NCBI GenBank assembly: GCA_002011615.1
Contig: MTOH01000006.1
Coordinates: 1 to 64,000, forward strand
Reading direction: 5' to 3'
Length of the DNA stretch: 64,000 nt
Origin: Candidatus Hydrothermus pacificus
Lineage (GTDB): Bacteria > Hydrothermota > Hydrothermia > Hydrothermales > Hydrothermaceae
A model generated the notes under the pieces. The model did no database searches. It worked only from the letters and a program-made list of their open reading frames with translations, and was not told the DNA's origin. The translations under genes were made by a program, and so were the position numbers. Shown piece by piece: positions 12,597 through 37,521 of this stretch; position 1 is the first letter of the stretch, and each line of letters begins with the position of its first letter.

Positions 12597-14171
12597 TTAT
12601 CTTTTCATAACTTTATTTTTTATAATTTTATTTCCTTTTTTAAACTGAATAAAATATATCCCTGAGGGCAGTTTTTTAATCTCCTTCAGGAAAGTAGAAG
12701 AACTGGTTGTAGTTAAAGCTTTTCTGGACACAAGTTTTCCTGAGGAGGAGAAAATAAAAATTTCTCCTTCTTCAAAATTTGAAAATTTCATATCATCAAG
12801 AAATAAAGAGGAAAAGGCATTATACTTTTTATAAGAAAATTTATCTTCTTTTATAGAAACTCCTGCTTCAAGGCTTATTACAGTAAAATCTTTGTTCGTG
12901 TCGTAGCCCGTACTTACACCTGCTGTATAAAGATTCCCATCCTCTCCATAAATTATAGACTTGATTTTATCAAAACCATTACCCTGACCATTGTATGTGT
13001 ATATCCATTTTTCATTTCCTGATGTATCAAGGCTTATCACAACCGCATCTTTTCCATGACATCCACTGTTTATATATCCTGCCACATATAAATTTCCATC
13101 TTCTCCAAATGCAAGAGAAGTCGCCCTATCATTTCCATTGCCAGAACCATTATAAATGTAAATCCATCTCAGATTTCCAGAGGGTGTCAGACTCAGGACA
13201 GCGAGGTCAGTAGAATCGTTGTCAACAGTCACAAAACCCGCAACATATATGTTTCCATCATTGCCATAGGTTATTGATAGAGCCCTGTCGTCACTGTCTC
13301 CCGGTCCACTATAAGTATATACCCATCTTTCTTGCCCATAAGGAGTAAGACTTATAACAGCTATGTCTTCTTTTGTCCCGTAATTCCATACATACCCTGT
13401 AGCGTATATGTTTCCATCATTGCCATAAGTAATTGCCAGAGCCTCATCAAATACATTGCTATTATGTTCATAAATCCACCTTACATTACCCTGGTTTGTC
13501 AGGCTGATTACACCAAAATTGTTGTTTATGGTGCCACAAACATAAATATTTACATTCTCTCCAAAACAAAAAGACCTTGCCCTGTCCGCCGTCGGGTAAG
13601 CAGTGTATTTATAAATCCACCTTTCATTCCCACTTCCTGTAAGACTCACAACTGTGAAATCAGTCCATGTTCCATCGTTAAATGTGGCACCTGCAGTGTA
13701 TACATTTCCATCCTGACCCATTTTTATTGAGTAAGCGTGATTATAACCATAATTTGAAGTGCCTTCAAGGTTATAAATCCATCTTTCATTCCCATCTCCA
13801 TCAAGACTTATAACTGTTAGATAGGAGTGAAAAAGACTTGTCATGATATAACCAGACGCATAGATGTTTCCATCATACCCATATACGATTGAAAAGGCTT
13901 CACTTCCTGAACTGGAAGAACCACCGTAATGATAATTCCATCTTTCATTTCCATCTTGAGTCAAACTTATCACAGTAAGATGTTTCTCAAAATTGCATCC
14001 TTCAGTCCATCCCGCTGTATAGAGATCTCCGTCTCCGTATACAATTGAATTAGCCACGTCATCTTCATTTCCTGTGCCATCGTAAGTGTAGACCCACCTT
14101 TCTGTTTGAGCAGAAAGTATTTTAGAGACGACCAGCCATACCATTATATGGACACTTAGCAGTTTTTTCAT
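12597..14171 (-). CDS. Secreted eight-repeat beta-propeller protein with Por-type sorting domain
   Basis: The protein has 524 residues from the ATG at 14171, which has the strong Shine-Dalgarno AGGAGGTG and begins a signal peptide (MKKLLSVHIMVWLVVSKILSAQ). The mature part is eight tandem repeats of about 45-55 residues. Each opens with RW[IV]Y and carries a YGxDGNIYxAGY core and a closing VISL, resembling SBBP-type propeller blades. The last 70 residues form a C-terminal sorting-like module ending in LPSGIYFIQFKKGNKIIKNKVMKR. It is a close relative of the protein at 35151-37043. Export by a type IX-like system is inferred; the ligand or function of the propeller is unknown. Confidence 0.8.
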   Translation of the reverse strand: MKKLLSVHIMVWLVVSKILSAQTERWVYTYDGTGNEDDVANSIVYGDGDLYTAGWTEGCNFEKHLTVISLTQDGNERWNYHYGGSSSSGSEAFSIVYGYDGNIYASGYIMTSLFHSYLTVISLDGDGNERWIYNLEGTSNYGYNHAYSIKMGQDGNVYTAGATFNDGTWTDFTVVSLTGSGNERWIYKYTAYPTADRARSFCFGENVNIYVCGTINNNFGVISLTNQGNVRWIYEHNSNVFDEALAITYGNDGNIYATGYVWNYGTKEDIAVISLTPYGQERWVYTYSGPGDSDDRALSITYGNDGNIYVAGFVTVDNDSTDLAVLSLTPSGNLRWIYIYNGSGNGNDRATSLAFGEDGNLYVAGYINSGCHGKDAVVISLDTSGNEKWIYTYNGQGNGFDKIKSIIYGEDGNLYTAGVSTGYDTNKDFTVISLEAGVSIKEDKFSYKKYNAFSSLFLDDMKFSNFEEGEIFIFSSSGKLVSRKALTTTSSSTFLKEIKKLPSGIYFIQFKKGNKIIKNKVMKR

Positions 14172-14190
14172 CACACCTCCTAAGTTTAAA

Positions 14191-14409
14191 TCAAATTTTA
14201 ATCTGTTTATCCAGTTTTTCATCAACCCTCCAAACATCATATTTTCCGTCAAAATAAATAAAGGTAAGTTCTTTCTCAGGAAAAATAACCTTAAAATGCA
14301 CTCTAAAACCAGCGGAGTAGTCTGAAAGAATTACACAGTATATTCTCCCATTTTTAGAAATACATCTGCCCCCAAATCTATTTATCAGTTCACTTAGCTT
14401 TTCTTCCAT
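14191..14409 (-). CDS. Small hypothetical protein
   Basis: A 72-residue protein of unknown function, MEEKLSELINRFGG at its start. The remainder looks like a small beta-rich fold with one Cys in CISKNGRIYC. Its start overlaps the 3' end of the HTH gene upstream by 20 bp, and the secreted propeller gene begins 19 bp downstream. It probably belongs to the same short transcript as the HTH protein. No family was recognised. Confidence 0.6.
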   Translation of the reverse strand: MEEKLSELINRFGGRCISKNGRIYCVILSDYSAGFRVHFKVIFPEKELTFIYFDGKYDVWRVDEKLDKQIKI

Positions 14410-32468: not shown

Positions 32469-33914
32469 TCATTTTATGGAAATTATTTTATGAGTATCTT
32501 TGAAATTCTCGGATTCTAATTTTAAAAAACAGATTCCTGAAGAAAGATTTAATTTTCTTAAACTTATAATCTTATTTCTAACAAAAATTTCTTTTATTTT
32601 ACTTCCTGATTTGTTGTAGATATAAAGGTAAATGGGTGAATGGGTTGATGGGTTAATGGGTAAGATGAGTTTGTCTTTTGTTATTGTAGGTATTTTTAGT
32701 TTTGACTTTTGACTTTTAACTTTTGACTTTTCCTCTATATTCTGTGCCCACTCATATATCCTTGTATTGTCATTACCCGAAATTATTATATCATTTATCC
32801 CATTGTTATCCACATCATAAATCGCTATTGATGAACCCGAACTATTCCCCGGCAATGTATCCCATATATAAAAATTGTTATTCACTGCATCATCAGCCTT
32901 TATTATAAAAACATAATCTTGTGCCTCAAGCACTATCTCGGGAATACCGTCTGCATCTACATCACCCGACGCTGAATAACCACCATAATATGTGGAAATT
33001 GTATTTATTATTAAAGTGTCAACTATCTGGTACTGGTTGTCACCTGTAGCCTCAAATATATAAACATCAAACTCATAACTCCCTATAAATCCTTTAACAA
33101 CAAACTCGATTTTTCCGTCCTGGTCTGCATCATTTACTGAAAAACAGTCTTTTATGTTTTTTGTCATCACATAATCCTGAAGAATTTTTTCATACTGATT
33201 ATTACCCTGTGCTTCATAAACCCAGTAAGTTGCACCCAGAGAACCCGCACTCATACCCCCCATAACAAATTCTATCTTTCCATCAAGGTCAAAATCACCG
33301 AAAGCATGGGTGGAGGAGGGAGCATCATTACCGGTAGTATCAGGGTCATCAGCAAAAATTAATTCATACTGATTGTTTCCTGTAGATTCATAAATTCCCA
33401 GATAACCATAGGGTGTAGTTCTATCCTTCACAATCTCAGGAATTCCATCCTGATCCATGTCATAAACACTTATAGGCAAAACCAGTGCAGGTCCCACCGT
33501 ATCCCTCCATACCTCATTTTTGGGATAGGAAAAGGAATCAGGGGATTCCCATATTAATATTCCATTAGAAGGCGGAGAACCTACACCAAAGAAAAATATA
33601 AAATCATATAATCCATCAACATCTGTATCATTTATCTTAAAAGGGACTAAAGAAAGAGTGTCTCCCAAGGATACAGAATCAGAAACCACGAATTCCATAG
33701 AACCCGGGGATATTTGCTCATAAAACCATATAATAGAAGCAGAATTGTTTTCCAATGTTCTAAATATGATCTCTGTAAGTGAATCCCTATCAGTATCGAT
33801 CACATTTACCATATAAGGGTACCCCTGTCCTCTTGGGATATACCCTTTCTCCACAAAATGACTTGCATTAAGAAGATTTATAAGAATAAATACAGGAAAT
33901 AATTTTCTCATCAT
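32469..33914 (-). CDS. Secreted FG-GAP/VCBS repeat protein with sorting domain
   Basis: The protein has 481 residues from the ATG at 33914. The reading frame extends upstream to a start at 33935, but that would pass through the hairpin at 33925-33948. A signal peptide (MMRKLFPVFILINLLNASHF) leads into about seven FG-GAP-like repeats with calcium-loop patterns such as DTDRDSLTE, DMDQDGIPE, DFDLDGKIE, DADQDGKIE and DVDADGIPE, forming a propeller. A low-complexity Lys/Ser linker (KSKVKSQKSKLK) precedes a C-terminal sorting-like module ending SSGICFLKLESENFKDTHKIISIK. No good Shine-Dalgarno is visible. Confidence 0.8.
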   Translation of the reverse strand: MMRKLFPVFILINLLNASHFVEKGYIPRGQGYPYMVNVIDTDRDSLTEIIFRTLENNSASIIWFYEQISPGSMEFVVSDSVSLGDTLSLVPFKINDTDVDGLYDFIFFFGVGSPPSNGILIWESPDSFSYPKNEVWRDTVGPALVLPISVYDMDQDGIPEIVKDRTTPYGYLGIYESTGNNQYELIFADDPDTTGNDAPSSTHAFGDFDLDGKIEFVMGGMSAGSLGATYWVYEAQGNNQYEKILQDYVMTKNIKDCFSVNDADQDGKIEFVVKGFIGSYEFDVYIFEATGDNQYQIVDTLIINTISTYYGGYSASGDVDADGIPEIVLEAQDYVFIIKADDAVNNNFYIWDTLPGNSSGSSIAIYDVDNNGINDIIISGNDNTRIYEWAQNIEEKSKVKSQKSKLKIPTITKDKLILPINPSTHSPIYLYIYNKSGSKIKEIFVRNKIISLRKLNLSSGICFLKLESENFKDTHKIISIK

Positions 33915-33924
33915 AAAATTAAAA

Positions 33925-33948
33925 GGGAGGGGCAAAAACGCCCCTCCC
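33925..33948 (-). terminator. GC-rich hairpin, probable terminator
   Basis: A perfect 9-bp stem GGGAGGGGC/GCCCCTCCC with a 6-nt loop lies 8 nt after the stop codon of the upstream cargo gene. It is followed on the minus strand by TTTTAATTTT, and the plus-strand side also has a T run. The downstream FG-GAP gene starts 10 nt beyond it. A 22/24-identical hairpin lies at 42289-42312. Confidence 0.75.
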
Positions 33949-33956
33949 CTTATTTT

Positions 33957-35150
33957 TTAATCTATCTTCACAAACCTGTGGTAAAGGGTTTTTCCTGTTT
34001 CAGGATTTTCTACTCTGAGGATATAGGTTCCTGAGCGGAGTTTTAAATCATTGAGATGAATCCTCTTTGTGAATTCTTTTTCAAAGACTATCCTTCCTGA
34101 AATGTCGTGCACATAAACCTTTACCCTGTTTTTAAAAGGAATTGCAAAATCAAGATTTATTTTTCCTTTGAAAACAGAGGGAATTGCAAGATTGAAAAAT
34201 GCCTTTTCCTTAAGGGATTGAACTCCTCCTTTTCCTGAAAATACAGGTCTTTCTTCAAACCTGAATATTCCCACAGGTCCTGCAATTGCATAGGTGCCTT
34301 CTACTTTTTCAAATTTTACTTCTATTTTCTCATCACTATATAACTGAGGCGGGATTTCAAAAAGGACTATTTCGGGATTGTTTGCAATAAGTTCTATTTC
34401 TTTCATAATCTGTCCGTCAATCATTATTTTTTCCGTAAGGTTTTCCTGTGCATATAAAACCGTGGCAAAATAGTATGTATATCCTGTATCAGGCTCAAAC
34501 TCATAACTCACATAATTATAACCCGCATCAACAGGAAATTGCAAATTAAAGAATGTATCCCTGTGGGTTAAATGAGGGGTTACTTCGGGATTTCCGGGTA
34601 TTGTTGTGAAATAGGCAATTGTATTCAAGAAGAGATTTTCAAGGGAAAGGGAATTTACGCCTCTTGAATAAACATCTATCTTTCTGAATTTTATTTCATA
34701 GGGTGCTGTATTTCCCTCCTGCCATACAGTATAAAGGGAATTATATGAGGGAGTGAATCGCACAACACTCTGAGGGAAAATTGATTTTGCAGAAGGAGTC
34801 TGGCTTATATTGTTCATAGGAGTCCCGGGATAGGTTTTCCAGTAAACATCGTATTCACCGGGTGTGTTATCCGCAAATACAGTATAAAGTCCGCCTGCAT
34901 TCACAGGATAAACAGAAAGAGCAGAGGGTGTTTCTGAGAGGTTTGTCCAGTAAAAATTTGTCCAATCTTTATGTCTTCCTGCTCTGTAAACCTCTCCGTC
35001 TACATTATTCTGCCAGACAACGAATATTGAATCACCGTATGTTTCAACAAAGGGATGCGAGGAGTTGTGCCCTTCTGGGTCAAACTGGTCACCCCACACA
35101 TTCCAGTTCTGTCCGGGCTGTCTTGTTCCGTAATATATTGTATCACCGTG
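33957..35150 (-). CDS. C-terminal portion of the stop-interrupted cargo protein
   Basis: The frame is open from the codon after the TAG at 35151-35153 to the TAA at 33957-33959, about 397 residues. The first GTG that could start it independently is at 35099. It has no signal peptide or Shine-Dalgarno, and the first 17 codons continue the upstream protein (HGDTIYYGTRQPGQNWN). It contains further VWQ-type repeats (FVVWQNNVDGE, YTVWQEGNTAP) and ends in a sorting-like module: VKVYVHDISGRIVFEKEF and LRSGTYILRVE, with final HRFVKID. Alone it could not be exported; it makes sense only as the C-terminus of the 35151-37043 product. Confidence 0.8.
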   Translation of the reverse strand, partial: HGDTIYYGTRQPGQNWNVWGDQFDPEGHNSSHPFVETYGDSIFVVWQNNVDGEVYRAGRHKDWTNFYWTNLSETPSALSVYPVNAGGLYTVFADNTPGEYDVYWKTYPGTPMNNISQTPSAKSIFPQSVVRFTPSYNSLYTVWQEGNTAPYEIKFRKIDVYSRGVNSLSLENLFLNTIAYFTTIPGNPEVTPHLTHRDTFFNLQFPVDAGYNYVSYEFEPDTGYTYYFATVLYAQENLTEKIMIDGQIMKEIELIANNPEIVLFEIPPQLYSDEKIEVKFEKVEGTYAIAGPVGIFRFEERPVFSGKGGVQSLKEKAFFNLAIPSVFKGKINLDFAIPFKNRVKVYVHDISGRIVFEKEFTKRIHLNDLKLRSGTYILRVENPETGKTLYHRFVKID

Positions 35151-35153
35151 CTA
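35151..35153 (-). other. In-frame TAG within a cargo gene
   Basis: The amber codon falls in HAVW-stop-HGDTIYYG. Matching repeats downstream read FVVWQ and YTVWQ, so a Gln codon CAG is expected; a single C-to-T change explains it. The frame is unchanged on both sides. Confidence 0.85.
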
Positions 35154-37043
35154 CCAGACCGCATGGAGTAAAGGACCCGTACCGCTTGCTATGCACGGGA
35201 AATCAAGATTTATCATGTTCGAGCCACTACTTGATTCCAAAATGAATTGTCTTATTAGTTCCGGAGACTCTGTTCTGAATGCAATTTCTTTTATATAGTT
35301 TGAGTTAGAACTATTAAGTTTGAAAAGTATATGAACAGAATCAATTCGAGTTTCAGCAGGTTGCTCTACAGTAATTGAAGCATGAGATGGCATGAGCGGA
35401 TTAGGTATTCCTGGGAAAAGATAATAGTTCCTTGTCCAAGTGGAAGATGTTTTTCTCGCATAAAAAAGTGTATCTGCACCTGTCCATGCAACACAGGGAT
35501 TATTTCTTGAATCAAGTGCAATTGCAGGAAATTCTCCTTTTCCGATAAGTTCAGGACCGTTCCATGTACTCCCTCCGTCAGGAGAGAAATAGTATTCTAT
35601 TATGTTTCCCAAGGAAGGCGTCCAGTCCTGAAGAACAAGATGTAATTTTTCGGAATTCGGTTCCCTTGCAAGATGCCTGTTGCCGTTGTATGCAAGGGGA
35701 TTCGGTGACTCTGAAGTCATGGAACCCCTGAGGCTGATGACAGTAAAATCCCTCACAGTATTTTCACCCCAGCTATATCCGGCAGCATAAATATTGCCTT
35801 CACCGTAGACAATAGAATATCCTCCGTCATCACCTGAACCAGGACCATTATATCGATAAACCCATCTTTCTTCCCCTTCTTTCGTAAGACTTATTATGAT
35901 GAAATCACGATAAGTATTTTCACCTGTACTGAAGCCGGTAATATAGAGGTTGCCATCTTCGCCTTCGGTAATAGACCAACTATCATCTCTTTCACCTATA
36001 GGACCATCATAAGTATAGACCCATCTAACATCACCGTTTGTTGTAAGTAAAATTACCCTTATATTCCGTTCATAATTTGAAGCGGTATAAAATCCCGTAA
36101 CATAAATATTCCCGTCAGAGCCGTAAATTACAGATCTTGCCCAATCACTCATATTTACTGGACCGTTATATTTATATATCCATCTTGGAATACCTGTGTT
36201 TGTAAAACTTATAACTGTAAAGTCACTTCCAGTACCATCTCCAGTTGAGTACCCAGCTACATATATGTTGTCATCTTCTCCATATACCATAGAAAGGCCG
36301 AGGTCTCCCCAATTTCCACCCCCGTCATAGAGATACACCCATCTCAATGACCCGGAAGATGTAAGAGAAATTACCGTGAAATCATCTCCAGTTGGAGTTC
36401 CTTGATAACTGCTACCACAGGCATAAATATTTCCATCATTTCCATATATAACACAAATAGCGCCATCATCTCCATTTGCACCATTATATCGATAAATCCA
36501 TCTTTCTGTTCCTCCAGAAGTAATACTTATAACAATAAAATCATCATCTGATGAAAATCCTCCATAACTATATCCAGCAGCGTAAATGTTACCATCATCT
36601 CCATAAGTTATCCATCTTGCCTCATCAGCCAAATCTCCCGGTCCATTATACCTATAAATCCATCTTTCACTCCCATCAGGAGTTAAACTTATGACTCCAA
36701 AATCCCCTTGTAAGTTTCCTGCCGTATAAATATAGTCATCTAATCCGTATACCAAGGAGTATCCCTCACTTCCTAAATATGGGCTAGGAGGATAAATATA
36801 TTTCCACCTCTCCGTTCCATCACTGGAAAGGCTCACCACCATAAGTTTAGCTGGCTCATCTGTCTGCGGAGATATGTCTCCGGTAGCATATATATTCCCA
36901 TCAAGACCATAGGTCACTGAATTAGCGTAATCCGGAGCCTGTGCTCCTCCATCATACCTATACACCCACCTTTCCACCTGTGCAAAAAGGGCACAGGGGA
37001 TAAAAATTCCTATCAAAAAAGAATATAAAATTATTTTTTTCAT
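35151..37043 (-). CDS. Secreted eight-repeat propeller protein, N-terminal portion before in-frame TAG
   Basis: The protein has about 630 residues from the ATG at 37043 (a GTG at 37049 is also in frame). A GGGGG Shine-Dalgarno and signal peptide (MKKIILYSFLIGIFIPCALFAQ) are clear. Eight tandem blades of about 45-55 residues follow, each RW[IV]Y...YGxDGNIYxAGY...VISL, closely related to the protein at 12597-14171. Then comes a BNR/sialidase-like segment (YYFSPDGGSTWNGPELIG, VAWTGADTLFYAR) that continues in frame past the TAG at its end to the C-terminal sorting module at 33957. The intact gene would encode about 1,030 residues. Confidence 0.82.
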   Translation of the reverse strand: MKKIILYSFLIGIFIPCALFAQVERWVYRYDGGAQAPDYANSVTYGLDGNIYATGDISPQTDEPAKLMVVSLSSDGTERWKYIYPPSPYLGSEGYSLVYGLDDYIYTAGNLQGDFGVISLTPDGSERWIYRYNGPGDLADEARWITYGDDGNIYAAGYSYGGFSSDDDFIVISITSGGTERWIYRYNGANGDDGAICVIYGNDGNIYACGSSYQGTPTGDDFTVISLTSSGSLRWVYLYDGGGNWGDLGLSMVYGEDDNIYVAGYSTGDGTGSDFTVISFTNTGIPRWIYKYNGPVNMSDWARSVIYGSDGNIYVTGFYTASNYERNIRVILLTTNGDVRWVYTYDGPIGERDDSWSITEGEDGNLYITGFSTGENTYRDFIIISLTKEGEERWVYRYNGPGSGDDGGYSIVYGEGNIYAAGYSWGENTVRDFTVISLRGSMTSESPNPLAYNGNRHLAREPNSEKLHLVLQDWTPSLGNIIEYYFSPDGGSTWNGPELIGKGEFPAIALDSRNNPCVAWTGADTLFYARKTSSTWTRNYYLFPGIPNPLMPSHASITVEQPAETRIDSVHILFKLNSSNSNYIKEIAFRTESPELIRQFILESSSGSNMINLDFPCIASGTGPLLHAVW

Positions 37044-37521
37044 CCTCACCCCCTGTTTCTAATTTCTTTTATAATTAAAAAATTGAAGAGGATCAGGTAA
37101 ACTCGATTTTTTTCTTGGTTTTTAAAGGTGGAGGGATTGTGGAAATGAAATTGCAGAAAATGAAAACGCACTTACCTCTCGAGAGAGTTCATACATGCTC
37201 CTCTCCTTTTTAAAAGTAAGTATTTTAATAATACAGGAAATTTTTTGATTTGTCAAGAGATATTTAAATTACAAAAAATAAATATGTAAAAAATGAATAA
37301 AAATTTACACTTTTTAAAAATGCCAAGATTCTGAATAATTATGAGAGGGTTGAAAAGCAAGGATTTCAGGGTTTGAGTCTTCCAAATCCGCATAAAATAA
37401 GACAACACACACTAAACGCGACAAATCCAATTAACCTATCTCGCATTTCGCGTAAGTTTCACCCGCTCGCATATTTATAAACTCAACAAACACGATTAAC
37501 GCAATAGATGCAAAAATGAAA
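37044..37521. other. 478-bp intergenic region with degenerate repeat
   Basis: No gene was found. It holds a CTCTCGAGAG palindrome (37176-37185) and an AT-rich stretch. From about 37380 to 37505 there is a more GC-mixed segment rich in CGC, CGA and AACGCAA words, containing one copy of a 29-nt repeat (37476-37504). The segment looks like a decayed dispersed repeat rather than coding sequence. Confidence 0.5.
37476..37504 (+). repeat. 29-nt dispersed repeat, copy B
   Basis: The sequence from TATAAACTCAACAAA to TAACGCAA is 24/29 identical to the copy at 32420-32448. Nearby 37408-37452 has looser similarity (CTAAACGCGACAAATCCAA), perhaps another decayed unit. Confidence 0.5.

Follow-up and report, generated by a model that had tools for sequence, protein, structure and literature searches.

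A premature in-frame TAG in a large T9SS-type cargo gene of Candidatus Hydrothermus pacificus, probably a recent nonsense mutation

Cargo proteins of the T9SS type A kind begin with a signal peptide and end in a C-terminal sorting domain, with large repeat domains between the two, and an in-frame stop in a gene of this kind can be set against several described situations. In pseudogenes, in-frame stops arise mainly by transitions from particular codons, while UGA is alone among the known bacterial stop reassignments in a survey of bacterial genetic codes (PMC8629427); in crAss-like phages, TAG is recoded to Gln (code 15; PMC9523058); and in pyrrolysine decoding, UAG likewise stands in frame. 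The gene described here lies in a 64,000-nucleotide window (contig MTOH01000006.1, positions 1 to 64,000, assembly GCA_002011615.1) of Candidatus Hydrothermus pacificus. Read through its TAG, it has the three features of type A cargos, including a sorting domain over the NCBIfam cut-off, but the signal and the sorting domain are encoded here on separate reading units. It resembles code 15 in having TAG where Gln is expected; however, no suppressor tRNA accompanies it, RF1 is kept, TAG is a normal stop, and the gene sits on a bacterial chromosome, not in a phage. It also differs from the pyrrolysine case, since PylS falls below its cut-off, a CUA tRNA was not found and the protein is not a methylamine methyltransferase. 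With ordinary nonsense pseudogenes it shares a lone premature stop, the presence of intact family members close by, a relative that keeps the sense codon, and other family members broken by stops and frameshifts, although no further decay is seen here yet. Further, pseudogenes are recognized by a disabling lesion relative to an intact homologue, and here the TAG stands against Q in the relative G011.

On the forward strand, positions 35151-35153 read 'cta', that is, TAG on the minus strand, and this codon is residue 633 of a minus-strand frame that, read through it, gives 1,030 residues (33957-37049; 1,030 codons with one TAG). The frame is made up of two ORFs, at 35151-37049 (632 codons, GTG start) and at 33957-35099 (380 codons, GTG start), with 397 more in-frame codons past the TAG. 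The coordinates and peptides of the original prediction, which described a 1,030-codon gene split by the TAG, were correct; read-through translation places HAVW before the stop and HGDTIYYGTRQPGQNWN after it in one frame, and the motifs FVVWQ and YTVWQ, cited there as downstream counterparts of the interrupted site, are present.

The N-terminal half (35154-37049, minus strand) has the likelier start at an ATG at codon 3, MKKIILYSFLIGIFIPCALFAQ, which we favor over the GTG. The sequence beginning at this point (that is, after the GTG and one codon) reads as a putative signal peptide, signal peptides being judged here by sequence and hydropathy and not with a dedicated predictor. It is followed by delta-60/SBBP-like repeats (residues 27-440), in which a TIGR02608 match at residues 142-181 stayed under the cut-off, and by the beginning of a second repeat domain (residues ~450 to 790) that holds the TAG. 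The C-terminal half (33960-35150, minus strand) is coding-like and consists of the remainder of that repeat domain, a further domain and a tail (residues ~945-1029) with the T9SS C-terminal sorting domain (Por_Secre_tail) at 33996-34169 on the minus strand. On the read-through protein, TIGR04183 (T9SS type A sorting) scores 30.8 bits (cut-off, 23), whereas the PF18962 match to the C-terminal half is under its own cut-off. The earlier reading of the product as a secreted cargo is borne out. The uninterrupted former gene would thus have carried signal peptide and sorting domain on one polypeptide, as a type A cargo does, while, as encoded, the two lie on separate halves unless the TAG is read through. 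Equally borne out was the claim that neither half has both, since a search of the N-terminal half gave no sorting domain and a scan of the C-terminal half by sequence and hydropathy gave no signal-like stretch. A PDB sequence search returned no match, and single-sequence structure prediction of residues 441-1030 (mean pLDDT 40.7, the C-terminal domains alone being moderately confident) was too poor for placing the TAG within the fold and was kept out of the argument.

The gene was evidently once whole, because the same-order relative G011 reads straight through the site with Gln in one open ORF (1,003 aa, aligned to residues 449-1029; GVWQHEDTIYYGERK over the TAG site, with Q at the aligned position). 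The more distant relative G006 has VVWQ there; that is, the premature TAG is not conserved in orthologues, and the Gln that had been expected at this codon is what the relatives show. Identity to G011 is 38% before the TAG and 36% after it, and the coding score per codon is 0.197 for the C-terminal and 0.199 for the N-terminal half (genome median, ~0.23; out of frame, -0.24), so the long open continuation past the TAG exceeds what chance would give. Since neither measure changes past the TAG, the downstream half has not decayed, and the lesion would therefore be young; no second lesion has accumulated in the 1,030 codons. Judged from these comparisons, the interruption would be young, not real, or tolerated. 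No close relative for a strain-level comparison turned up in a pattern scan of the genome contigs with the C-terminal half, and no other genome among those compared belongs to the genus or family of the source organism. About 20 kb away lies an intact gene paralogous to the N-terminal repeat module, a redundant cargo with its own sorting tail (12597-14252, minus strand), and its positions 12855-14171 are 44% identical to residues 3-445. The immediate neighbor (32469-33935, minus strand) is an intact FG-GAP cargo gene with a sorting tail, which follows a TAA and shares the frame by chance.

Por_Secre_tail gave 87 matches at E<=1 in the 2.06-Mb genome, about 35 of them above the cut-off, which makes the T9SS-like cargo set apparently very large for a small genome. 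We surveyed 758 kb (37% of the genome) for interruptions, taking some stretches at regular intervals and others from around 78 sorting-tail genes. Besides the main gene, two TAG-interrupted and about five frameshifted sorting-domain genes were found among the 78 tails; roughly one such gene in ten in this genome is broken. One of the former is a BNR/sortilin-repeat cargo gene of 1,221 codons (C1:215190-218852, minus strand; L087:15187-18852) with TAG at codon 186 (C1:218295-218297), a position at which the residue varies among BNR relatives (Q, N, A, S, D). The other is an M6-peptidase cargo gene of 1,510 codons (C11:41272-45801, minus strand; L153:273-4802) with TAG at codon 80 (C11:45562-45564), whose N-terminus has no homologue in the class to give the expected residue. 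The apparent frameshifts, called by eye from two-frame translations, are at C2 ~128190 (L093), C1 ~304790 (L149), C10 ~61700 (L146), C14 ~17590 (L151) and C8 ~640 (L173), and all five fall between a signal-bearing and a tail-bearing part. No sorting-tail gene in the 758 kb was interrupted by TAA or TGA. The expected TAG share of new nonsense codons is 0.33 by all single-base routes (transitions weighted 4:1) or 0.58 by transitions only, and the probability of three TAGs in three is accordingly 0.33^3=0.04 or 0.58^3=0.19; that is, the excess over expectation is mild, and a TAG-specific pattern was rejected because three of three lies within expectation (0.04 to 0.19). The three TAGs fall in unrelated places (633, 186 and 80) and unrelated domains, with differing codon contexts. 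Mixed lesions at arbitrary positions, as seen across the stops and frameshifts, are the outcome expected when members of a large, redundant family turn into pseudogenes. Overall, 8 of the 10 lesions found were in cargo genes, compared to ~23% of the sampled coding sequence, a figure that is approximate as detection was uneven and weaker outside tail genes.

Among a fresh nonsense mutation, an assembly error and amber readthrough, the original prediction made no choice; the first of these (or else a variant or consensus error) fits, whereas readthrough is disfavored. Under readthrough, an amino acid would be inserted at the TAG often enough to yield a full-length, surface-sorted form beside a truncated periplasmic one, which agrees with the intact, coding-like C-terminal half, with the presence of near-cognate Gln tRNAs (UUG, CUG) and with the restriction of the in-frame cargo interruptions to TAG; the absence of a second lesion is also predicted by readthrough, as it is by a sequence error. 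However, RF1 is present above its curated cut-off in a profile search of the whole assembly (2.06 Mb in 19 contigs, 95% complete), so RF1 loss was rejected. The tRNA with a CUA anticodon that was to be looked for was absent among the 46 tRNA genes of this assembly (0/46), which led us to reject an amber suppressor tRNA and, with a PylS search that reached no more than a partial match of 22 bits (cut-off, 178), pyrrolysine decoding as well. TAG is also a routine, clean stop: it terminates 44 of 351 non-overlapping genes of at least 150 aa (464 kb sampled), and 41 of the 44 have a short or non-coding continuation after it, the other three being one gene that runs into the start of the next and two of the cargo interruptions. 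Many clean TAG-ended genes, combined with no bridging peptide and with clear decay of the downstream part, had been named beforehand as a refuting outcome; the clean TAG ends are there, but the decay was not seen. RNA folding past the three cargo TAGs showed no excess over shuffles (z of 0.15, 0.75 and 0.05), so a stimulatory structure downstream was rejected, the test covering structural elements and not all stimulatory elements being structural. Nor do the three positions share an architectural boundary or a codon context, G011 lacks the stop, and mean TAG readthrough in E. coli reporters is only ~0.01-0.8%, varying with temperature and medium (PMC11126739). We consider readthrough of this gene quite improbable, and the wider proposition, that UAG is partly read through and at least three T9SS cargo genes yield both truncated periplasmic and full-length sorted forms, very improbable. 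Separately, a tRNA at C1:271437-271507 (plus strand; L106:238-308) has an unusual anticodon loop, for which ARAGORN gives a four-letter anticodon, cgca; it is probably a tRNA-Ala(CGC) whose loop departs from the standard length.

That the C-terminal half has become a gene of its own by re-initiation, giving two functional proteins, is hardly credible: its earliest possible start, a GTG, does lie only 17 codons past the TAG, but this start would fall inside the repeat domain, the half is devoid of a signal-like stretch so that its sorting domain would be unable to reach the periplasm, and G011 retains a single ORF. More weight attaches to the reading that the assembled base is incorrect, or a minor strain variant in a mixed population, with the gene intact in most cells. 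The consensus is not perfect, because an A9 run (C1 about 240,400-240,430) splits the sole pth (peptidyl-tRNA hydrolase) gene and because the ~797 kb of stretches read contain eleven isolated single N bases (e.g., L085:5851, L098:6942 and L151:4193), or about one per 70 kb, which point to places where the consensus is ambiguous. The pth gene, essential in bacteria studied, appears as two partial matches with a frameshift at C1:240174-240616 (minus strand; L248/L249), either an error in the sequence or slippage within the run of nine A, so that at least one lesion in the assembly is probably unreal or tolerated. The lack of any other decay in the affected gene is likewise compatible with an error or variant. 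However, the TAG at 35151-35153 is not in a homopolymer, the kind of tract in which indel errors arise, and errors should spread evenly, whereas the lesions are concentrated in the sorting-tail genes; biology is therefore favored, and we regard an error or minor variant at this position as unlikely.

Hence, we favor the hypothesis that the TAG is a real and recent nonsense mutation in the sequenced population and that the gene was recently broken, which we hold to be probable. The former product would have been one of many large T9SS-type cargos, in which a Sec signal peptide is followed by repeat propellers and, at the C-terminus, by a sorting domain. A single substitution would have changed a sense codon to TAG, the closest relative having Gln there. 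Translation would then be ended by RF1 after codon 632, leaving a truncated product with the signal peptide and a partial second repeat domain and without the sorting domain, which would be retained in the periplasm and probably degraded, while the downstream half, having no signal peptide, would not be usefully made. We infer that living cells do carry this base, although the population may not be fixed for it. The concentration of the lesions in the cargo family is what ordinary turnover of redundant secreted genes would give, and the event is most likely an ordinary nonsense mutation.

As a nonsense mutation, the case is minor, one more instance of turnover in a large redundant secreted family, and it calls for caution in that annotation pipelines will list the interrupted gene as two. 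Readthrough, if shown, would be a new way of regulating surface display in a lineage for which no recoding is known, a reading that the evidence disfavors. Finally, we observed an apparent frameshift in an ankyrin-repeat gene at C3 ~100240 (plus strand; L043), where the reading changes from FVKLLMERG to GKGANPNVGAEDG.
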